Origin: Methanosarcina sp. MTP4
GTDB taxonomy: Archaea > Halobacteriota > Methanosarcinia > Methanosarcinales > Methanosarcinaceae
DNA length: 64,000 nt
Assembly: GCF_000970045.1 (NCBI RefSeq)
Contig: NZ_CP009505.1
Span: 3,930,808 to 3,994,807, forward strand
Direction of reading: 5' to 3'
Shown here piece by piece: positions 37,004 to 44,902 of the stretch. The first letter of the stretch is position 1. Every line of letters begins with the position of its first letter. Under the pieces are notes generated by a model. The model was not told the DNA's origin. It searched no databases and saw only the letters and a program-made list of their open reading frames with translations. The position numbers were made by a program, and so were the translations under genes.

Positions 37004-37195
37004 GAAAGGTTCACAGTAAATGGATATTGTTTCTATGATCCAAATCAAGAAAAATGCAGTTTCTCAAAGAATAAACAAGATGGGTAAGTTTTTCCTCTTT
37101 TACAATGGAGAGTTTCATTATTCATTAAAACTTTTTTTGGATAATATAAAAATGTTAAAATAACAGAGTTATTGTATATATATAAGGGATATATG

Positions 37196-38011
37196 AGATG
37201 CCAAGCAGATAATGAAAAAATGACTCTAATTGATTCTTTACTCCTTTCTAAAAAAAGACGTGAAATTGTCGAATCTTTATTTTATGAGGATAAAACTTCA
37301 GAGGACCTTAAACGACTACTTAAAGTTGAATGGGTTTTACTGAAAGAGCCGATAAAAAAACTAATGGAAGAAGAACTTATAATTTGTCATGACAAAAAAT
37401 ATAGCTTATCAAAAGTAGGTAGGGTTATCTGTGAAAATACACTTCCTTTGGTTGAACTTGCAGAAACATTTGGCAAGAATCCTGAGTATTGGATCAGTCG
37501 TGATTTAAGTCCAATTCCTGAATATTTAGCTGGAAACATTGGTAAAATGAAAGGTTGTAGCGTGGTTGTTCCTCACCCAGACCATATGTTTGAACCTTTA
37601 AAAGAAGTTATCAATGAGTCGGAGAAAGAGATTGCCTTCTCAGAAGAAATAAAACTTTGTTTAGTTTTATTTTATCCCGAATCAATTGATATTTTAACAG
37701 AGTATTCAAAACGTGGGATTCACATAACCCTTATTTTAACAAAGTATATTTATGATAAAATGCTCAACGAATTTCAAGATAAGTTAAAGCTGTTATTGGG
37801 ATCAAAAAATTTGAATCTTTTCGTATTTAATGAAAACAAAGTGATTCCCCAGATTGTAATTACAGATTTTAAAGCTTTAGTAATTTTTTTCAATCAAAAA
37901 GGTAAATATGATTATCAGGAACTTTTAGGTTCTGATATATATGCTTTAGAGTGGGCAACGGAACTATTCTCTTATTATGAAAAATGTTCCGAACATATAA
38001 GCACTATTTAA
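37196..38011 (+). CDS. DUF1724-type winged-helix regulator (first copy)
   Basis: The N-terminal 80 residues form a winged helix (SKKRREIVESLFYEDKTSED, then KKLMEEELIICHDKKYSLSK). The rest matches the methanogen DUF1724 effector domain (YWISRDLSPIPEYL, VVVPHPDHMFEPLKEVINES). Proteins of this type (Msr regulators) control methyltransferase genes in Methanosarcina. AAGGG lies five bases before ATG 37196; an upstream TTG at 37172 and an internal ATG at 37220 are alternatives. The gene is clearly AT-rich and points toward the methyltransferase block. Binding targets are inferred from position. Confidence 0.82.
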   Translation, partial: RCQADNEKMTLIDSLLLSKKRREIVESLFYEDKTSEDLKRLLKVEWVLLKEPIKKLMEEELIICHDKKYSLSKVGRVICENTLPLVELAETFGKNPEYWISRDLSPIPEYLAGNIGKMKGCSVVVPHPDHMFEPLKEVINESEKEIAFSEEIKLCLVLFYPESIDILTEYSKRGIHITLILTKYIYDKMLNEFQDKLKLLLGSKNLNLFVFNENKVIPQIVITDFKALVIFFNQKGKYDYQELLGSDIYALEWATELFSYYEKCSEHISTI

Positions 38012-38348
38012 GTTAGTTTTTGGCAATCTTGTTTTACCTAATTCATAGTAATTTTTTCAATAAGCTCATCCCAAAACTTGATGTAATATAATAATTGCTC
38101 CCATAATCACAATTTTTTGTATCCAATTTTTTTGTTCCTGCAGTGCCCTGACCACCTGGAGAATTGAAGCGAAAGAGCAACGCCGGTACAAAAAGGTTTT
38201 CAGAATTTTTGATGCAGTTCCCATTCCCCGGTAAATGGCAAACCGGTTTAGGGAAGGCATTTTTCCTGAATCTTCCAGGTTCCGGGTGTCCCATGTGAAG
38301 CCTGGAGGTTATATGCTTTGGGCCCCGGTGTTTTTTAGATCGTTTTTC
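38012..38348. other. Spacer with a diverged copy of the RNA-like repeat
   Basis: About 340 bases after the regulator. At 38222-38255 the sequence TTCCCCGGTAAATGGCAAAC plus CGGTTT resembles the start of the two tandem units that follow, keeping the CCGGT/ACCGG pairing. The rest of the unit is not recognisable. No gene is supported; small frames on the minus strand run through the repeats. Confidence 0.5.
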
Positions 38349-38585
38349 GGGCCGGTGTTTCCCCGGTAAAATGGCGAAACCGGGTTGAACCAACCTTCTG
38401 GAGGTATTTTTGTGGATTTTGTGGATATAAACTGTCCTCTCCACGGGAAGACACATTAAAATGGCAAATGTGTACTTCCCGGGGCAAGGCGTTGCAGGTA
38501 TGACTCACTTCTTGGGGGAGATATGATAACAATGTCTATCGAGAGAGGGGTTAAGGCATTGTCATCAGCGTGATGTATTTTTTTT
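38349..38585 (+). ncRNA. Predicted structured RNA unit, copy 1
   Basis: This is the first of two tandem units of about 240 bases. Paired elements visible on the plus strand are CCCGGT/ACCGGG, ACCTT/GAGGT (one wobble pair), CTCA/TGGG, ACAATGTC/GGCATTGT and, last, CATCA-GCG-TGATG followed by a run of T, an intrinsic terminator shape. Several differences from copy 2 change a Watson-Crick pair to a G-U pair and keep the stem. No frame is shared by both copies along their length. It lies between a DUF1724 regulator and the convergent permease. Nothing proves it is transcribed. Confidence 0.45.
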
Positions 38586-38593
38586 CGAATTTA

Positions 38594-38829
38594 GGGCTGG
38601 CATTTCCCCGGTAAAATGGTGAAACCGGGTTGATCCAACCTTCTGAAGGTATTTTTGTGGATTTTGTGGATATAAATTGTCCTCTCCCCGGGAGGACACA
38701 TTAAAAAGGCAAACGTGTACTTCCGGGGGAAGGCGTTGCAGGTATGACCCACTTCATGGGGGATATATGATAACAATGCCCATCGAGCGAGGGATTAAGG
38801 CATTGTCATCAGCGTGATGTATTTTTTTT
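38594..38829 (+). ncRNA. Predicted structured RNA unit, copy 2
   Basis: This second tandem unit is offset by 244-245 bases from copy 1 and highly similar. It has stems CCCGGT/ACCGGG, ACCTT/AAGGT, GTCCTC/GAGGAC, CCCA/TGGG, ACAATGCC/GGCATTGT and a terminal CATCA-GCG-TGATG before eight T residues. The GTCCTC stem is perfect here but has one mismatch in copy 1. A one-base length difference in the middle breaks any shared reading frame. A repeated mobile sequence is the main alternative to an RNA gene. Confidence 0.45.
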
Positions 38830-38902
38830 GAATTCGTTTCTTAATTCGTTATTGCTTTTATTCTCGCATTTATTTGTTCATGCTTTTGGGATAATTTCAT
38901 TT

Positions 38903-38937
38903 AAAAAAAGGCCCCTAATACAATACAAATAGGGGCC
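38903..38937 (-). terminator. Terminator of the permease transcript
   Basis: On the minus strand TAGGGGCC closes a stem with GGCCCCTA around a 12-base loop (38910-38937), followed by seven T residues (A-run 38903-38909 on plus). It begins about 29 bases after the permease stop, a strong intrinsic terminator. Confidence 0.8.
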
Positions 38938-38965
38938 CAGTCTATTTTTGATTCTTACCTCTTGT

Positions 38966-40462
38966 TCAAGAATCAATGGGTATATTTGAATCAACGGCTA
39001 TATTTTCCTCTGAGCTACCAGACTGGCCCTGTGAATAGAACCAAATTGGTACATAAACTGCCAGCACTCCAAAACCAACAAGAGTCGATGCCCATCCGAT
39101 TTCAATACTGTTCAAATAGATGATACCTATAATGAAGAACGGTATATTTATCAAACCGAATATCAATGCAACATGCTTCCAGCCAGTTGGTGCTTTGAAT
39201 GGTCTTTCAAGTCTTGCAAGCTCTGGGTCGTTCTTTGCTTTCACATAAGCAAAGAGGCTGATACCCTGTGCAGCAATATATCCAATTGCTGATGCAGCAA
39301 GAATCGCTACAGGTGTTCCAAGAGATACAAATCCAAGATTTATCACAGCAATGAACGCCATGGCAACATATGGAGCTCCGTTACCATTTACTTTGCTAAA
39401 TACACGAGGAAAGTTCCCTTCGATCGCCATTGAATGCAGTGATCTTGAAGAACCAAGGTAAATAGTCTGTATCAACAAAATCATTGCTGTAATGAGCATG
39501 AATATTGCAACTACTGCTCCTGTAGCTCCAAATGTCATCTGAGCAACGGGCAACAGTGGAGTAAATGATTCTGCAATCGTCTGACTTACACCAATGGTTC
39601 CAGTTACTGATGCCTGGATTAGTACAAATGACAGAAGACAGACTCCACCGCAGGCGAAAAGTGCTTTTGGTACATCGCTACCGGGGTTCTTGTACTCAGG
39701 ACCATAGATCGCAGCTGTTTCCCATGCACATGCACTCCATTCAGCCATCGCAAACAAGCCGAATAAGATCAATATGTGATGAAGGTCCCATGCCCAATCC
39801 GTTGGAAACCATTCAGAAGTGATATTTGTTATGTTGAAATCACCTGTTGCAAATGGTGAAAGTGTTATAATAATAAGAGGCCCAAGAGACAAAACTGCAA
39901 GTATATACCCGAGTGTTGCTCCGCTGGAAAGTCCCCTAAGATTAATAACCATAAGCAGAGAGAATATTGTTATACAAGTAATATATGCAACTTGCATTTC
40001 ACTAAAAGTATTTGAAATTGAGGGAAACAAACTATAAAGATAACTAGAAGCCACCAGGGCGAATATGGACATTGCTGGAGCCCATCCAAACCAATAACTC
40101 CAAGCACTAAACCCACCAATAAATTTACCCTTGTCATACCTTCCTTTATGGTTTCGTGTTTTGAAAATGTTTTGTGCAAAACCCGGCAATCCGGATGCAT
40201 TTGGAAAAGCTGTAGCCAGTTCTCCAAATGCAGTGTTTTGCGCAAAGCCCTGAAGTACTGACAGACCCCATACGAGTATCGCAGCGGACCACAAATAACT
40301 TGATAAATAACCTATTGAGGGCAATATCGCAAGAGGAACACCCAAAGCAATTGCAAGACCCTGTTTCCAATCAATTGATCTCTCAAGGTTGCTGGCCTCA
40401 CAAATCACTTTAGAACATTGTTCGGCATGCTGCCAATCAACGCCTTCTTTTTTTTCAACCAT
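38966..40462 (-). CDS. APC-superfamily permease of the methyltransferase block
   Basis: A 498-residue membrane protein with about twelve hydrophobic segments, in the amino acid-polyamine-organocation style: early GYLSSYLWSAAILVWG, and SRSLHSMAIEGNFPRVFSKVN in the second half. Permeases of this sort sit beside methylamine and other methyltransferase genes in Methanosarcina and are thought to import the methylated substrate. The first 25 residues (MVEKKEGVDWQHAEQ and on) are soluble, and a copy of them occurs at 43581-43646. AAGGATGTGAT precedes the ATG. The gene is AT-rich and lies 381 bases beyond the second methyltransferase on the same strand. Confidence 0.85.
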   Translation of the reverse strand: MVEKKEGVDWQHAEQCSKVICEASNLERSIDWKQGLAIALGVPLAILPSIGYLSSYLWSAAILVWGLSVLQGFAQNTAFGELATAFPNASGLPGFAQNIFKTRNHKGRYDKGKFIGGFSAWSYWFGWAPAMSIFALVASSYLYSLFPSISNTFSEMQVAYITCITIFSLLMVINLRGLSSGATLGYILAVLSLGPLIIITLSPFATGDFNITNITSEWFPTDWAWDLHHILILFGLFAMAEWSACAWETAAIYGPEYKNPGSDVPKALFACGGVCLLSFVLIQASVTGTIGVSQTIAESFTPLLPVAQMTFGATGAVVAIFMLITAMILLIQTIYLGSSRSLHSMAIEGNFPRVFSKVNGNGAPYVAMAFIAVINLGFVSLGTPVAILAASAIGYIAAQGISLFAYVKAKNDPELARLERPFKAPTGWKHVALIFGLINIPFFIIGIIYLNSIEIGWASTLVGFGVLAVYVPIWFYSQGQSGSSEENIAVDSNIPIDS

Positions 40463-40843
40463 ACTTGATCACATCCTTTTTTAACAATACTCCATTTTTG
40501 GGTCGTGAGGACGAGTTTCTGAAGACCAGAAGACCAGAAGCCCACGAATATCTCGTTATTTTTTTTAAATGTTAGGTATGTACTCGTTTTTTTAGAGTAT
40601 ATTTTTACACTCAATGATTGTAAACCGGTTCGGGGGGTTTCGGAGGAACAAGTGGCTACTGCCTTAACCCAGGTCTTGAACCTGTCAGTTGAGGGGAAGT
40701 CCCACAACCAGGAATACTACCTTTGCTCCTCCGTCGAATAGGGTTTGCCACACACAATTGGGTTTTCCCCGGAGTTTTTGCCCCTTTTCTGCCGCTATGC
40801 ACTTAACGGACTCATACTCCGGAAATTTTCCTTTTTATCGTTT
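40463..40843. other. Spacer between permease and methyltransferase genes
   Basis: A 381-base gap. A 100-codon minus frame (40405-40707) overlaps the permease start in another phase and has no ribosome site; part of it (WDFPSTDRFKTWVK) could be a relic of an insertion element, which I cannot confirm. It probably also holds the permease promoter. Confidence 0.35.
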
Positions 40844-41854
40844 TTACTGATTTGCGCTTTCCCTGGCTGCTTCTACCATTGCTTTTATGTTTTCCAGGCT
40901 TGCTCGGGTCGGGATCCCGCAGCCGGGAGCCAGGACGTTTGCCCCTTTCCGGATGCATTCCAGGGACTCTTCTTTCACAGTTTCGGGGGTGCCCAGGAAG
41001 AGGGTGTCCGCAGGGTTTATGTTCCCGATGATTGCTGTTTTGCCTCCCAGGACTTCCCTGGCTTCACCCACGTCCACCAGGTGATCCAGGCTGATCCCGC
41101 TTACTCCGGTTTCCGCCATCATCTCCAGGATGGGTTTCGAGTCTCCACAGATGTGGAGGATGCTCGGGACACCCAGGCTTTCCACAAGCTCCTTGCAGTA
41201 GGGAAAAGCCATTTCCCTGTAGTGCGCTGTTCCCAGGAGTTCGCTCCCCGCGGAAGGGTCGATGATGACCACGGCATCTGCTCCGTTTTCAACAAGGGCT
41301 TTACCGTAGGTTTTCAGGACCTCCGTGGAATACTTCAGAAGGGACTTGACGAAATCCGGATTGTCGAAGAAGTCCATGAGGAGGGTTTCGACACCCCTGA
41401 CCTGTCCGGCGAGGGTGAAAGGACCGACGATTCCTGCAATTACGGGCACGGTCTCATCCGTTTCCGCAAGGATCCTGACGGCTTCCACAACAGTTGCCAT
41501 CCTGCCGTCCGCAAGCGGTTCCGGGCATACGGCATCCTCAAAGGCTTCTATTTTCCGGAAAGCCGCCCTCCGGATGGAGGGCTGGGAGTCAAGCCTCCCT
41601 TCGCTGACCTGGGAACCCACGGTTTCGGCTTCCACACAGAGGTCGAAAGGCACTCTTGCACTTTCGATCCCGGCAAGCCTGTTTGCCGCAAGGGCCAGAG
41701 TTGCCATCTTTTCCGGGTCGCGGTGGGCTTCGGGCCAGGCAGCCCCGGACTCTTCCATCATTTCAACGGTTGCGGTCTGCAGGGGGCAGGCTGCCGAGAC
41801 CCTGTCGACTTCTTCCAGTTTCAATGATGCAAGAAAGCGTTCTTTATCGTTCAT
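40844..41854 (-). CDS. Methylcobalamin:coenzyme M methyltransferase, MtaA/MtbA family
   Basis: These zinc enzymes of the uroporphyrinogen-decarboxylase fold transfer the methyl group from a corrinoid protein to coenzyme M. The 336 residues contain the zinc ligands His234 and Cys236 (LHICGDSKP) and Cys312 (APGCGIP), spaced as in characterised MtaA (His237, Cys239, Cys316). VGPFTLAGQVRGVE and DPSAGSELLG are also family features. The gene starts 16 bases after the corrinoid protein gene and is GC-rich. The CoM role is inferred from similarity and gene order. Confidence 0.9.
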   Translation of the reverse strand: MNDKERFLASLKLEEVDRVSAACPLQTATVEMMEESGAAWPEAHRDPEKMATLALAANRLAGIESARVPFDLCVEAETVGSQVSEGRLDSQPSIRRAAFRKIEAFEDAVCPEPLADGRMATVVEAVRILAETDETVPVIAGIVGPFTLAGQVRGVETLLMDFFDNPDFVKSLLKYSTEVLKTYGKALVENGADAVVIIDPSAGSELLGTAHYREMAFPYCKELVESLGVPSILHICGDSKPILEMMAETGVSGISLDHLVDVGEAREVLGGKTAIIGNINPADTLFLGTPETVKEESLECIRKGANVLAPGCGIPTRASLENIKAMVEAARESANQ

Positions 41855-41870
41855 TGCTAGCCTTCCTACC

Positions 41871-42512
41871 TTACTCGGAAAGCAGTCTCTGAGCTACCCT
41901 TATGGCCTCGGAAGCATTGTCAGCATACCCATCTGCTCCGATGTTGTCACAGAACTCCTGGGAGACAGGGGCTCCTCCGACCATAATCTTGATACCGGGG
42001 AATTCTTCTTTGAAAAGCTTGACGTCTTCTTTCATTTCCATCATGCTTGTTGTCATGAGGGCTGAAAGGGCTACAAGGTCGACGTGTTCCTCTTTGATTT
42101 TATCCTGGAAATCTTCGGGAAGGACGTCTTTTCCCAGATCGAAAACAGTCAAACCCGCGGTTTCAAGTAAGAGTTTTACGAGGTTTTTGCCGATGTCATG
42201 GATGTCTCCAAGGACAACTCCGATGGCTACTCTCCCCGATTCCTTGATTTCATCGGCTTTAATGTGCGGCTTGAAGATTTCCACGGCCCCTTGCATCGCC
42301 CTTGCGGCGAGCAGGATTTCCGGGACAAACATTTCTCTCTTTTCGTATTTGTCGCTGACAATGCTCATCCCATTAGCACAGCCATTGATGACTGCATCAT
42401 AAGCATCGACGTTGTTCTCCAGAGCTTTGTTTGCAAGCTCCACACATTTACTAGCATCACCTTTAACTACGGCTTCTGCCAGGCTGTTCAGGATTTCATC
42501 TCTTGCGGCCAT
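41871..42512 (-). CDS. Methyltransferase cognate corrinoid protein
   Basis: The protein carries a corrinoid between two methyltransferases. Its 213 residues show the helical cap domain (residues 1-88) and the B12-binding domain with DIHDIG, where His105 is the lower cobalt ligand (Asp103, His105, Gly108), then SALMTTSMMEM and GGAPVSQEF. It belongs to the MtbC/MttC/MtmC kind. It lies between two zinc methyltransferase genes, 42 bases after one and 16 before the other, so the three form an operon. It is GC-rich like the CoM methyltransferase and unlike the first methyltransferase. Confidence 0.93.
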   Translation of the reverse strand: MAARDEILNSLAEAVVKGDASKCVELANKALENNVDAYDAVINGCANGMSIVSDKYEKREMFVPEILLAARAMQGAVEIFKPHIKADEIKESGRVAIGVVLGDIHDIGKNLVKLLLETAGLTVFDLGKDVLPEDFQDKIKEEHVDLVALSALMTTSMMEMKEDVKLFKEEFPGIKIMVGGAPVSQEFCDNIGADGYADNASEAIRVAQRLLSE

Positions 42513-42554
42513 TCTTGTTTCACCCTTTTTTTTAGTTGATTTTGTTCACGAATT

Positions 42555-43577
42555 TTAGACATTAGTATTATCTTTCCATATCTCGACGTTCTCCATCGGT
42601 GTTCCAGGTGCAATGTCACAACCTCCTGCAAGAATGTGTCCCACACCACCTGTTGACTCGATACAGGTTCTTATTTGAGCACGTACATCATCAGGAGTTC
42701 CATTGAAAAGTGTGTTTGCCACATCGAGATTACCTAAAAGTGTAACTTTTTCACCCATCACTTTTCGGGCTGCAGCTAGGCCAACTGGTAAATCGACGGA
42801 TAAAACATCATGAGGGATTTCAACTATACTCCCGACTCGATCTGACACATCCCCGCAAATGTGTATCATCACATCTCTTCCAGCCGCTTTGAGAGTACCC
42901 GAAAGGTCTGTCATATACGGCTGGGAATAAGTTTCAAACGTTGCTTTTGATATGAGATTACCTGACGCGGTAGGGTCACACATAAACACCCCATCAACAT
43001 CGAGTGAGTCCATCAGGTACTTATTATATACTTTTAAAGTCTCAGTCGAAAAAGAGAGGAGTTCTTTGACAAAGTCAGGATCTGTGTACAGATCAAGCAT
43101 CATTACCTCAACGCCACGCAGCTCCCCGGCCAAAGTAAATGGAGCCATTAGGTCGTAGTAAGTGTACCGCTCCTCTCCGATAACATCAATCAATTTGGCT
43201 GCAGTCTCAATACCACTTTTTAGCCTCTTATCCTGACTAGGATCCGGGATCTCAAGAGCCTCAAGTGAAGAGGCATCGGAAACGACGTGTGTCCTGGTGC
43301 TTGGTCCACCCACATCAGTTATGTTTACCTCACATCCAAGTGCCGGTAAGGGAGTTTGCCAGTCCCATAACACCTCTAAAGCATCAAAATCGCACTTTTC
43401 CAACACTTTAAGCTGAGCCTCTGCAGCGAGAGCAGGATTGTCGAAAGACTTCTGAACGGACACGTTAGAGTATTCGAGGGCCCAGTACCCTTGGAATGGT
43501 CCACAGATAGGAACACTCTCCACTGGCTCAAAATTTAGTGCAGCAAGCATTTTCTCTTTATGGTTAGAGTAGCTCAT
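42555..43577 (-). CDS. Uroporphyrinogen decarboxylase-fold methyltransferase, likely substrate:corrinoid
   Basis: A second zinc methyltransferase, 340 residues, with His239 and Cys241 (IHICGDVSD) and Cys320 (AGGCDIAPG). It is clearly diverged from the MtaA/MtbA-like gene of the same operon. Other members of the fold demethylate substrates such as aromatic methyl ethers or chloromethane and load a corrinoid. Being first in an operon that already has a CoM methyltransferase, it most likely demethylates the substrate; the substrate is unknown. AAGGAGTG precedes the ATG, inside a short permease-like fragment. Composition is AT-rich. Confidence 0.85.
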   Translation of the reverse strand: MSYSNHKEKMLAALNFEPVESVPICGPFQGYWALEYSNVSVQKSFDNPALAAEAQLKVLEKCDFDALEVLWDWQTPLPALGCEVNITDVGGPSTRTHVVSDASSLEALEIPDPSQDKRLKSGIETAAKLIDVIGEERYTYYDLMAPFTLAGELRGVEVMMLDLYTDPDFVKELLSFSTETLKVYNKYLMDSLDVDGVFMCDPTASGNLISKATFETYSQPYMTDLSGTLKAAGRDVMIHICGDVSDRVGSIVEIPHDVLSVDLPVGLAAARKVMGEKVTLLGNLDVANTLFNGTPDDVRAQIRTCIESTGGVGHILAGGCDIAPGTPMENVEIWKDNTNV

Positions 43578-43580
43578 TTT

Positions 43581-43646
43581 TTACACTCCTTCGTCATCTA
43601 TGCGTTGTTCAGCATGATGACAATCAACACCTTCTTCTTTTGTCAT
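43581..43646 (-). pseudogene. 21-codon copy of the permease N-terminus
   Basis: ATG 43646 opens MTKEEGVDCHHAEQRIDDEG, one further residue and a TAA at 43581-43583. It aligns with the permease start MVEKKEGVDWQHAEQC, with strong DNA similarity across about 33 bases (EGVD..HAEQ). The frame ends four bases before the methyltransferase ATG and contains that gene's ribosome site. It is either the remains of a second permease gene or a leader peptide. Confidence 0.6.
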
Positions 43647-43924
43647 GTCTCTAAACCCTGGGTTTTGGCTCTTCACCATTCTCCGTGGGTAAGACGATTT
43701 TTAATCCAAGGCCATGTTGGTTTTTGATATGAATACACGCACAAAACAACGAGAAGCCTTTGTTAGTAAAAACCCGAATAGATACCATACTTAAAAAATT
43801 CGATATCAATCGGTGTTAACCCTACTACAGTTAAGAATATGTATCAACTAATATATAGGAAAAATTATACTTCTATTTCAATCGCTGTATTCCTTTGACA
43901 TGAATAGAATAGCAATATCATGTG

Positions 43925-43982
43925 TCACATGTTTTTGTCAGGGGTCACATGCTTTGTCAGGGATCACATGCTTTTGTTAATA
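43925..43982. promoter_or_regulatory. Three direct repeats of about 20 bp (candidate operator)
   Basis: TCACATG plus TTTTTGTCAGGGG (43925), TCACATG plus CTTTGTCAGGGA (43945) and TCACATG plus CTTTTGTTAATA (43964) recur with 20- and 19-base spacing, close to two helical turns. They lie between the divergent methyltransferase operon and the second DUF1724 regulator, so a regulator binding array is plausible. Confidence 0.5.
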
Positions 43983-44116
43983 GTGAAAAAATCCTAATTC
44001 AGTCATAGCTTACATATTTTATATCCAAAAATCAAGCTAAAATTTCAATTTTTTTCGCAGAGTTGTTTCAATTATACGTTAGGTATTTAATAAATGCCCA
44101 TCCCAACAAATGTATA

Positions 44117-44902
44117 ATGAAAAATGATCTACTCAATACCATATGGTTGTCAGAAAAAAGACGAAAACTTATTCACCTTTTAAAAGATGGTCCAAAAGAT
44201 ATTGATGAGATTAAATCCACATTTAATGTATCTTCACGTTTAATTGTACCTCAGATAAAGCAATTGGAAAAACAAAAAATCATAATCGAAAATGATGGAG
44301 TATTTCAATTATCAAATATTGGGGAATTATTAATTGACAAAATGCTGAAGATTGTCGATATTAACATACTACTGGAAAAGGATAAGGATTATTGGGAGAA
44401 ACGTACGTTATATTCATTGCCTCCACAAATGTATGAAAAAATTGGTGATTTGAAAAATAATTATTTGTACGAATACAATATTAATAATGTCTTAGAAATA
44501 CCACCACCATTTTATCCTCATCTGGTAAAAACCAACCACTATTTTATGTTGTTACCCTACTTTCACCCCAACGTCATAAGAGAAACACTGAACATAACGA
44601 AAAATGGAACCAAAACCATATTGCTTGCCACACCGAAAGTCGTTAAAAGAATAAAAAAGGAATTTCGAGAAGATTTAACAAAACTTATCAACTCTCCAAA
44701 TCTAGAAATAAGAATTCTTGATGAAAAAACAAAACCTCCAGCACTCTTTATCACTGATGACCTGATATTAATCGGATTTGCCACCGAAGAAGGTGTGTGG
44801 GATGATCGGGAACTAATTAGTCAGGACGAAAAGGCCTTAAATTGGACACAAGAACTATTCATATATTATAAGCATATGTCTACGCCTTTAAGTGGGATTT
44901 GA
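44117..44902 (+). CDS. DUF1724-type winged-helix regulator (second copy)
   Basis: A paralogue of the regulator at 37196: winged helix (WLSEKRRKLIHLLKDGPKD, KQLEKQKIIIENDGVFQLSN) followed by the effector domain (KDYWEKRTLYSLPPQMYEK, ALFITDDLILIGFATEEG). It is transcribed away from the methyltransferase operon and is very AT-rich. The frame opens at TTG 44063, but ATG 44117 (MKNDLLNTIWLSEKRR) aligns with the other copy's start, giving 261 residues. No ribosome site is visible, so the message may be leaderless. It probably controls the divergent operon. Confidence 0.82.
   Translation: MKNDLLNTIWLSEKRRKLIHLLKDGPKDIDEIKSTFNVSSRLIVPQIKQLEKQKIIIENDGVFQLSNIGELLIDKMLKIVDINILLEKDKDYWEKRTLYSLPPQMYEKIGDLKNNYLYEYNINNVLEIPPPFYPHLVKTNHYFMLLPYFHPNVIRETLNITKNGTKTILLATPKVVKRIKKEFREDLTKLINSPNLEIRILDEKTKPPALFITDDLILIGFATEEGVWDDRELISQDEKALNWTQELFIYYKHMSTPLSGI

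Follow-up and report, generated by a model that had tools for sequence, protein, structure and literature searches.

A putative three-component corrinoid methyl-transfer block with an apparently undescribed methyltransferase family in Methanosarcina sp. MTP4

Introduction

The described systems closest to the one reported here combine UroD-fold methyltransferases with corrinoid proteins. In Methanosarcina acetivorans the MtpCAP-MsrH set comprises a corrinoid protein, one UroD enzyme, an MFS transporter and a regulator, msrH, which is part of the mtpCAP locus and is needed together with it for growth on methylmercaptopropionate (MMPA) (PMC7374477); MtpA is named methylmercaptopropionate:cob(I)alamin methyltransferase in a title cited in PMC11619418. 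MtsA/MtsB and the fused MtsD/F/H proteins pair a UroD with a corrinoid domain and act on S-methyl groups, while type 1 mlp gene clusters (Kountz and Balskus) are recognized by the joint presence of Mlp2, Mlp3, a corrinoid protein and a RACE activase. The haloalkane and aryl-ether enzymes of the methyltransferase I (MTI) type, CdmB, MtvB and OdmB, are UroD substrate:corrinoid methyltransferases with a separate second methyltransferase, and CdmB was found without zinc (PMC13222342). Among UroD proteins, His-Cys-Cys zinc sites mark the S/Se methyltransferases, and O-demethylases have one or both cysteines replaced (PMC10418091). Here we describe a block of six genes from Methanosarcina sp. MTP4 that carries two such methyltransferases, MT1 and MT2, on either side of a corrinoid protein (CP). 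It lies in a stretch of 64,000 nucleotides of contig NZ_CP009505.1 (positions 3,930,808 to 3,994,807), hereafter the window, to which all coordinates refer unless another locus is named. We consider it probable that the block encodes a corrinoid methyl-transfer system with three components, serving methylotrophic methanogenesis, and that MT1 and MT2 divide the labor.

Layout of the block

Four genes on the minus strand are flanked by two regulator genes on the plus strand, and window gene calls and domain searches found all six intact. MT1 (42555-43577, 340 aa; PF01208, 203 bits) has the UroD fold and is a putative substrate:corrinoid methyltransferase; CP (41871-42512, 213 aa; PF02607 and PF02310) is a B12-binding protein with the motif DIHDIG and a putative methyl carrier; MT2 (40844-41854, 336 aa; PF01208, 279 bits) is MtaA-like and a putative methylcorrinoid:coenzyme M methyltransferase; and the fourth gene (38966-40462, 498 aa; PF13520) encodes an APC permease of the MtbP (dimethylamine permease) type. 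This is the gene set that a first-pass annotation, made from the sequence alone, had read in the block. As that annotation also stated, MttB, MtmB, MtbB and MtaB are missing from the block by gene calls and domain search, such loci occurring elsewhere in the genome. An Rfam search of the block returned no match.

The annotation had further placed the two methyltransferases in one operon. Since MT1 and CP are 42 bp apart and CP and MT2 16 bp apart, compared with 381 bp between MT2 and the permease gene, MT1, CP and MT2 do look like one operon and the permease may form a separate unit; a segment of 2.48 kb that includes the permease (38204-40684) is missing from the corresponding block of Methanosarcina sp. 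UBA293. In UBA293, which represents a second genus, MT1, CP and MT2 are again contiguous (85.9% DNA identity) and the order R2-MT1-CP-MT2 is kept, R2 being the regulator upstream of MT1. Methanosarcinaceae archaeon UBA9310 carries the MT1 side of the block plus CP at 94% DNA identity. This recurrence argues against a chance arrangement.

MT1 and MT2 are different kinds of UroD methyltransferase

The zinc-ligand residues were verified by position in both enzymes (His239, Cys241 and Cys320 in MT1; His234, Cys236 and Cys312 in MT2), so that MT1 has the His-Cys-Cys site of UroD-type S/Se methyltransferases. Curated models separate the two proteins. MT2 scores above the SCMT subfamily cut-offs (PRK06252, 378.8 vs. 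244; TIGR01463, 327.2 vs. 235.4) and below the equivalog cut-offs for MtaA (353.9 vs. 400) and MtbA (299.9 vs. 600), whereas MT1 falls below the subfamily cut-offs (TIGR01463, 183.3 vs. 235.4; PRK06252, 162.2 vs. 244) and below that of every MtaA/MtbA model. Phylogeny gave the same division. For tree labels, MtaA was taken from PDB 4ay7, and MtbA, MtpA and fused Mts from a genome that we take to be M. acetivorans C2A (G074). The latter labels were assigned by position, gene context and the locus numbers in PMC7374477; MtsA was unlabelled in the tree set, and CdmB was the sole reference for the aryl-ether/haloalkane MTIs. Two quick trees of 100-104 UroD proteins contained some unstable long branches, with the split between MT1 and MT2 present in both. 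MT2 was placed inside a superclade with MtaA, MtbA and MtpA (97-99 in the Shimodaira-Hasegawa-like approximate likelihood ratio test), yet outside MtaA and MtbA, forming a separate subclade together with copies found in the host genus, UBA293 and Methanofrustulum; MT1 was placed outside the coenzyme-M methyltransferase superclade in both trees. Model scores and tree placements thus support the presence in the block of two different METHYLTRANSFERASES, MT1 outside and MT2 inside the coenzyme-M superclade. They bear out the annotation's claim of two distinct UroD methyltransferases, and the placement it had named as fatal to its proposal, both enzymes within the MtaA/MtbA clade, was not what the trees returned, as MT1 stands outside the coenzyme-M methyltransferase clade.

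Modeled with AlphaFold (predicted local distance difference test score 94.5), MT1 had M. mazei MtaA (4ay7) as its top Foldseek match, with a template modeling score of 0.88-0.89, and matches to MetE were more distant, after MtaA and UroD. The predicted structure bears out the assigned fold and adds nothing on substrate.

The MT1 clade and its linkage to permeases

Gene contexts were examined locus by locus in fetched stretches (labels beginning with L). MT1 was present in 3 of 112 Methanosarcinaceae genomes, namely the window genome, UBA9310 (97%) and UBA293 (85%), and a search of the phylum Halobacteriota gave no further close MT1, M. acetivorans likewise having none; tblastn of plasmid records with MT1 produced matches at 21-28% only. 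Relatives were instead found by a GTDB genome scan and Thermoplasmata search in 19 of 400 Thermoplasmata genomes, at roughly 35-48% identity. MT1 and these mostly Thermoplasmata proteins form one clade (24 rows, support 100/99), which is shared with Methanomassiliicoccales. Its members have in common a motif in the N-terminal region resembling P(F/Y)QG(Y/F)WA, and the zinc site is retained in nearly all; H239, C241 and C320 are invariant across the 25 rows of alignment A2. One Thermoplasmata member (L237 6141-7172) has lost the zinc ligands (RVYGD, GAGGD), possibly reflecting a changed substrate or lost function. Within the open-licence literature, a scope that leaves out most subscription journals, we found no description of the MT1 clade, its permease linkage or its substrate, nor any paper dealing with methanogens and S-methylmethionine or with a UroD methyltransferase linked to an APC permease. 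The family is apparently undescribed.

At 10 Thermoplasmata loci the MT1 homolog is immediately preceded, on its own strand, by an APC permease gene (gap -4 to +77 bp); at an eleventh the permease gene is 1,068 bp upstream. Among the loci examined, an APC gene stood within 150 bp upstream of 9 of 22 MT1-clade genes compared to 0 of 172 other UroD genes (Fisher p = 6e-10, uncorrected for shared ancestry), and in the Thermoplasmata loci the identities of MT1 and APC proteins covary (r = 0.93). The Thermoplasmata permeases belong to another APC branch than the window permease (roughly 22-38% local identity). Next to the APC-MT1 pair, the opposite strand repeatedly encodes a protein of 227-231 aa (L229-L235); both members tested matched HTH_10 (PF04967), and the protein is likely a local regulator.

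The window permease shares 65-68% identity with permeases encoded directly after pyrrolysine-containing mtbB-like genes in other genera, and only about 58-61% with the copies of its own genus. By its APC fold and its orthology to permeases downstream of mtbB it is of the MtbP type, with dimethylamine transport itself being a prediction. A second trace of such a permease stands 3 nt upstream of MT1, where 66 bp (43581-43646, minus strand) resemble the start of an MtbP-type gene (MTKEEGVDCHHAEQ compared to MEKKEGIDWHHAEQ). This piece scores 58 against MtbP N-termini, compared with a best score of 36 when 2000 shuffles were run against the permease of the window, and it occupies the same position in all three Methanosarcinaceae genomes with MT1. 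Because the start codon in UBA9310 is CTG, we regard it as a decayed remnant, implying that a permease formerly lay upstream of MT1 here too or that MT1 was inserted behind the start of one. Elsewhere in the host genome (L082 2881-5167, about 2099-2101 kb), genes for a corrinoid protein and an MtbP-type permease adjoin that of a FilR1-type regulator, and no methyltransferase gene is visible between or beside them.

MT2 and the corrinoid protein have near-copies in cluster B

MT2 is 99.4% identical to a copy in a second gene cluster of the same genome, cluster B (L015 1325-8601, about 675-683 kb in own-genome coordinates). At the DNA level, MT2 together with the 257 bp spacer downstream of it (41862-40587) is 96.3% identical to cluster B; for the corrinoid gene, identity to its cluster B counterpart is 92.8%. 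The spacer (40587-40843, minus strand) matches the MT2-to-mtpP spacer of cluster B and we read it as a recombination scar. Its counterpart runs into an MFS gene, unlike that of the window block, where the APC gene follows. The two MFS genes of cluster B share 90% identity with one another and 82-85% with M. acetivorans MtpP, and an MtpCAP-like set forms the second half of the cluster. Because MT2, the spacer and CP are near-copies of their cluster B counterparts, we conclude that the second half of the block exchanges DNA with a methylthio-type cluster, the transporter slot differing. The first-pass annotation's description of the block as self-contained is consequently too strong, since MT2 and CP are near-copies of genes in another cluster and the four RACo/RamA activase genes of the host genome all lie outside the block. 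Directly 3' of MT2, a hairpin (40766-40825, minus strand) is conserved in the window, cluster B and UBA293 (folding z = -3.4, -5.8, and -2.3, respectively) and may end or process the transcript.

Cluster B encodes, in order, a corrinoid protein, a 366-aa UroD protein, a second corrinoid protein, a second 366-aa UroD protein, the MT2 copy and an MtpP-like MFS transporter, and it directly precedes the MtpCAP-like set, which carries an MtpP copy of its own. It is tempting to read cluster B as a module for demethylation of dimethylsulfoniopropionate (DMSP) to MMPA, because MtpCAP would consume the product. Three more genes for 366-aa UroD proteins, with two MT2-like genes and corrinoid genes, make up cluster C (L013, 2521-2541 kb in own-genome coordinates), which adjoins an IS1634-family transposase and is conserved in UBA9310 and BM5_bin.6.

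Regulators and the divergent promoter region

R1 (37172-38011) and R2 (44063-44902) are both FilR1-type proteins, with PF08350 matches of 79.6 and 81.6 bits (cut-off 27). PF08350 is FilR1_middle, which we take to be the former DUF1724, and these are the DUF1724 regulators that the first-pass annotation had placed on both sides of the block. It was also right as to their kind, related regulators standing by the mts and mtp sets of the same genome. R2 has orthologs beside the block in UBA9310 (98%) and UBA293 (81%). The TTG at 44063 seems too far upstream for its start because the UBA9310 ortholog begins at the equivalent of 44117, the probable start. The UBA293 ortholog (L051 6637-7452) has exactly two in-frame stops, both TAG, and is otherwise intact, as in a pseudogene or a gene read through with pyrrolysine. 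An R1 ortholog (62%) also stands by the UBA293 block, inverted relative to it. PADLOC matches of R2 to CasR/CARF-type proteins were weak, and we attribute them to common helix-turn-helix or sensor-type similarity.

R2 is divergent from MT1, and the region between them contains putative regulator sites (43917-43974, minus strand): two 19-bp direct repeats (AAAGCATGTGAYCCCTGAC) at 43956-43974 and 43937-43955, plus a degenerate third. Such repeats are expected 0.03 times by chance in the window and were found in no other fetched locus.

The host

The host genome is a single contig of 4.21 Mb from the Methanosarcinaceae, in a genus that also includes assemblies UBA9310 and BM5_bin.6. Its 24 UroD-family genes, 22 B12-binding-2 genes, three MtaB loci and two MttB loci mark it as a well-equipped methylotroph, to which may be added mtbCBP (L083) and MtmB-like (L010) loci, the MtpCAP-like set and four fused MtsD/F/H-like proteins. 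Judging by its family, the host presumably makes methane.

Comparison with known systems

The block shares features with each of the described systems and differs from all of them. MT2 has the UroD fold, the His-Cys-Cys zinc site and the superclade in common with MtaA and MtbA, but its equivalog scores and separate subclade set it apart, and MT1 is excluded from that group by both models and trees. MtpCAP-MsrH likewise has a corrinoid protein, a UroD methyltransferase, a transporter and a regulator; however, its single UroD enzyme and MFS transporter contrast with the two UroD enzymes and the APC permease of the block, and it is cluster B, the likely partner of MT2 and CP, that holds an MtpCAP-like set. 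MT1 is not MtpA, given about 20% identity, a different clade and the APC instead of MFS transporter, nor is it a fused MtsD/F/H protein, as UroD and corrinoid domains are on separate genes and MT1 lies outside the fused-Mts clade. The dimethylamine operon mtbCBP has the same permease type, but its pyrrolysine-containing MtbB is absent from the block, the methyltransferase of which belongs to another fold family. Type 1 mlp gene clusters resemble the block in having more than one UroD methyltransferase with a corrinoid protein and the His-Cys-Cys zinc site. Their activase has no counterpart in the block, where the acceptor is presumed to be coenzyme M, and MT1 is outside the L190/L104/L101 clade; we therefore rejected this assignment. 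The block also shares the two-methyltransferase arrangement of CdmB, MtvB and OdmB, but MT1 has a full zinc site in contrast to zinc-free CdmB, and its best match was MtaA (5e-29) rather than CdmB (2.1e-5), the only reference of that group, which led us to set aside an aryl-ether/haloalkane MTI.

Outside the methanogens, Nitrospirota and an unclassified archaeon (L105 9965-17272, L110, L120, and L092) have a UroD pair, mostly with a corrinoid protein, a RACE activase and an apparent MtrH-type methyltransferase, possibly a pterin-linked route of methyl uptake.

Discussion

In the three-component system that we favor, the substrate would enter through the APC permease, and the zinc of MT1 would bind its heteroatom and move the methyl group to Co(I) of CP, as fold, motif and clade suggest. 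MT2, by its clade and the curated models, would transfer the methyl group from methyl-Co(III) to coenzyme M, and the resulting methyl-CoM would enter methanogenesis; CP would be reactivated by a RamA-type activase from elsewhere in the genome, there being none in the block. R2, with the repeat sites between it and MT1, is the presumed switch and probably turns the block on. The account builds on the gene content, the intact zinc and cobamide motifs, the clade placements, the conservation of R2-MT1-CP-MT2 in a second genus and the linkage of MT1-clade genes to permeases in a second phylum, from which we infer the direction of transfer, coenzyme M as the acceptor of MT2 and the class of substrate. 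The first-pass annotation had likewise proposed that MT1 demethylates and MT2 feeds coenzyme M, and this is the best-supported reading because MT2 lies inside and MT1 outside the coenzyme-M methyltransferase clade. Several observations weigh against it. MT1 is very rare among Methanosarcinaceae; membership of the superclade is no proof of coenzyme M use by MT2, because MtpA sits there with MtaA; 9 of the 19 Thermoplasmata loci are without a directly adjacent APC gene (some are cut by contig ends), and most Thermoplasmata APC-MT1 pairs have no corrinoid gene beside them; the UBA293 block is without a permease; and the dimethylamine-type permease of the window would fit an N-methyl substrate equally well.

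As to the substrate, which the annotation had left unnamed, the zinc site and the permease linkage narrow the field. We tentatively propose a methylthio or sulfonium compound with an amino group, such as S-methylmethionine, methionine or S-methylcysteine, because the His-Cys-Cys zinc points to S/Se and the APC linkage in two phyla to an amine-bearing molecule. Each of these clues alone permits other substrates. A wider and more doubtful proposal is that methylthio or sulfonium amino acids (S-methylmethionine, methionine, S-methylcysteine or a selenium analog) feed a methanogenic route not described before, in which the MT1 clade supplies the demethylase. Methanomassiliicoccales and a few Methanosarcinaceae would use this enzyme together with a dedicated permease of the amino-acid type, and the related 366-aa UroD proteins of clusters B and C would play the same part for sulfonium acids such as DMSP.

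The alternative that fares best, though we think it unlikely, is that the block uses an amine or amino acid methylated on nitrogen. MT1 would then be an amine demethylase of the UroD fold that does without pyrrolysine, with the MtbP-type permease supplying its substrate. We know of no UroD-fold enzyme that demethylates amines. The close relatives of the window permease follow a dimethylamine methyltransferase gene, the remnant before MT1 is also MtbP-type, and the Thermoplasmata APC linkage would suit an amine too; set against this, His-Cys-Cys zinc prefers soft S/Se ligands (PMC10418091), and MT2 and CP derive from a cluster with methylthio-type transporters. Dimethylamine itself, if argued from permease type alone, is weakened by the permease-free block of UBA293 and by the zinc site.

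That MT2 and CP are near-copies of cluster B, in a genome with an MtpCAP-like set and four fused Mts-like proteins, raises the rather improbable alternative of a duplicate for known substrates, with MT1 merely broadening the methylmercaptopropionate and dimethylsulfide systems of its own genome. MT1 is, however, far from MtpA (20% in A2) and, in the tree, equally not close to the domains of the fused Mts proteins, and it has a divergent regulator and repeat sites of its own. If the block served not for energy but for salvage or detoxification, recycling methyl-selenides or methyl-sulfides in the manner of type 1 mlp gene clusters, it would draw on like parts, namely a single corrinoid protein alongside several UroD methyltransferases (PMC10418091) and zinc ligands of the same type. 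We judge this improbable, as the block has no activase, selenium or methionine-salvage gene, MT1 stands apart in the tree from UroD proteins encoded in the bacterial mlp-like clusters L101, L104 and L190, the host is rich in catabolic methyltransferase systems and the block's regulators are of the methanogenesis type. Reverse operation of MT1, from methyl-CP to a thiol such as homocysteine in methionine synthesis, would accord with the distant MetE matches and with the existence of corrinoid-fed core methionine synthases (PMC7857596), but is very improbable given MT2, the permease, the catabolic-type regulators and a MT1 sequence much nearer the methyl-CoM-forming enzymes.

The three-component system we favor is thus made of parts that all come from known superfamilies and follows a known logic; it is the MT1 clade, the permease linkage and the substrate that appear undescribed. 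Methanomassiliicoccales are an order common in animal guts and wetlands. The permease-methyltransferase pair is conserved in them and the complete module occurs in Methanosarcinaceae, and as the known methyl substrates of methanogens are a short list, both point to a class beyond it, which the zinc site and permease linkage narrow enough for a short screen. The block also illustrates how such systems may be assembled, with a new first enzyme joined to a cassette of corrinoid protein and second enzyme that is copied between clusters, and with the transporter slot exchanged.

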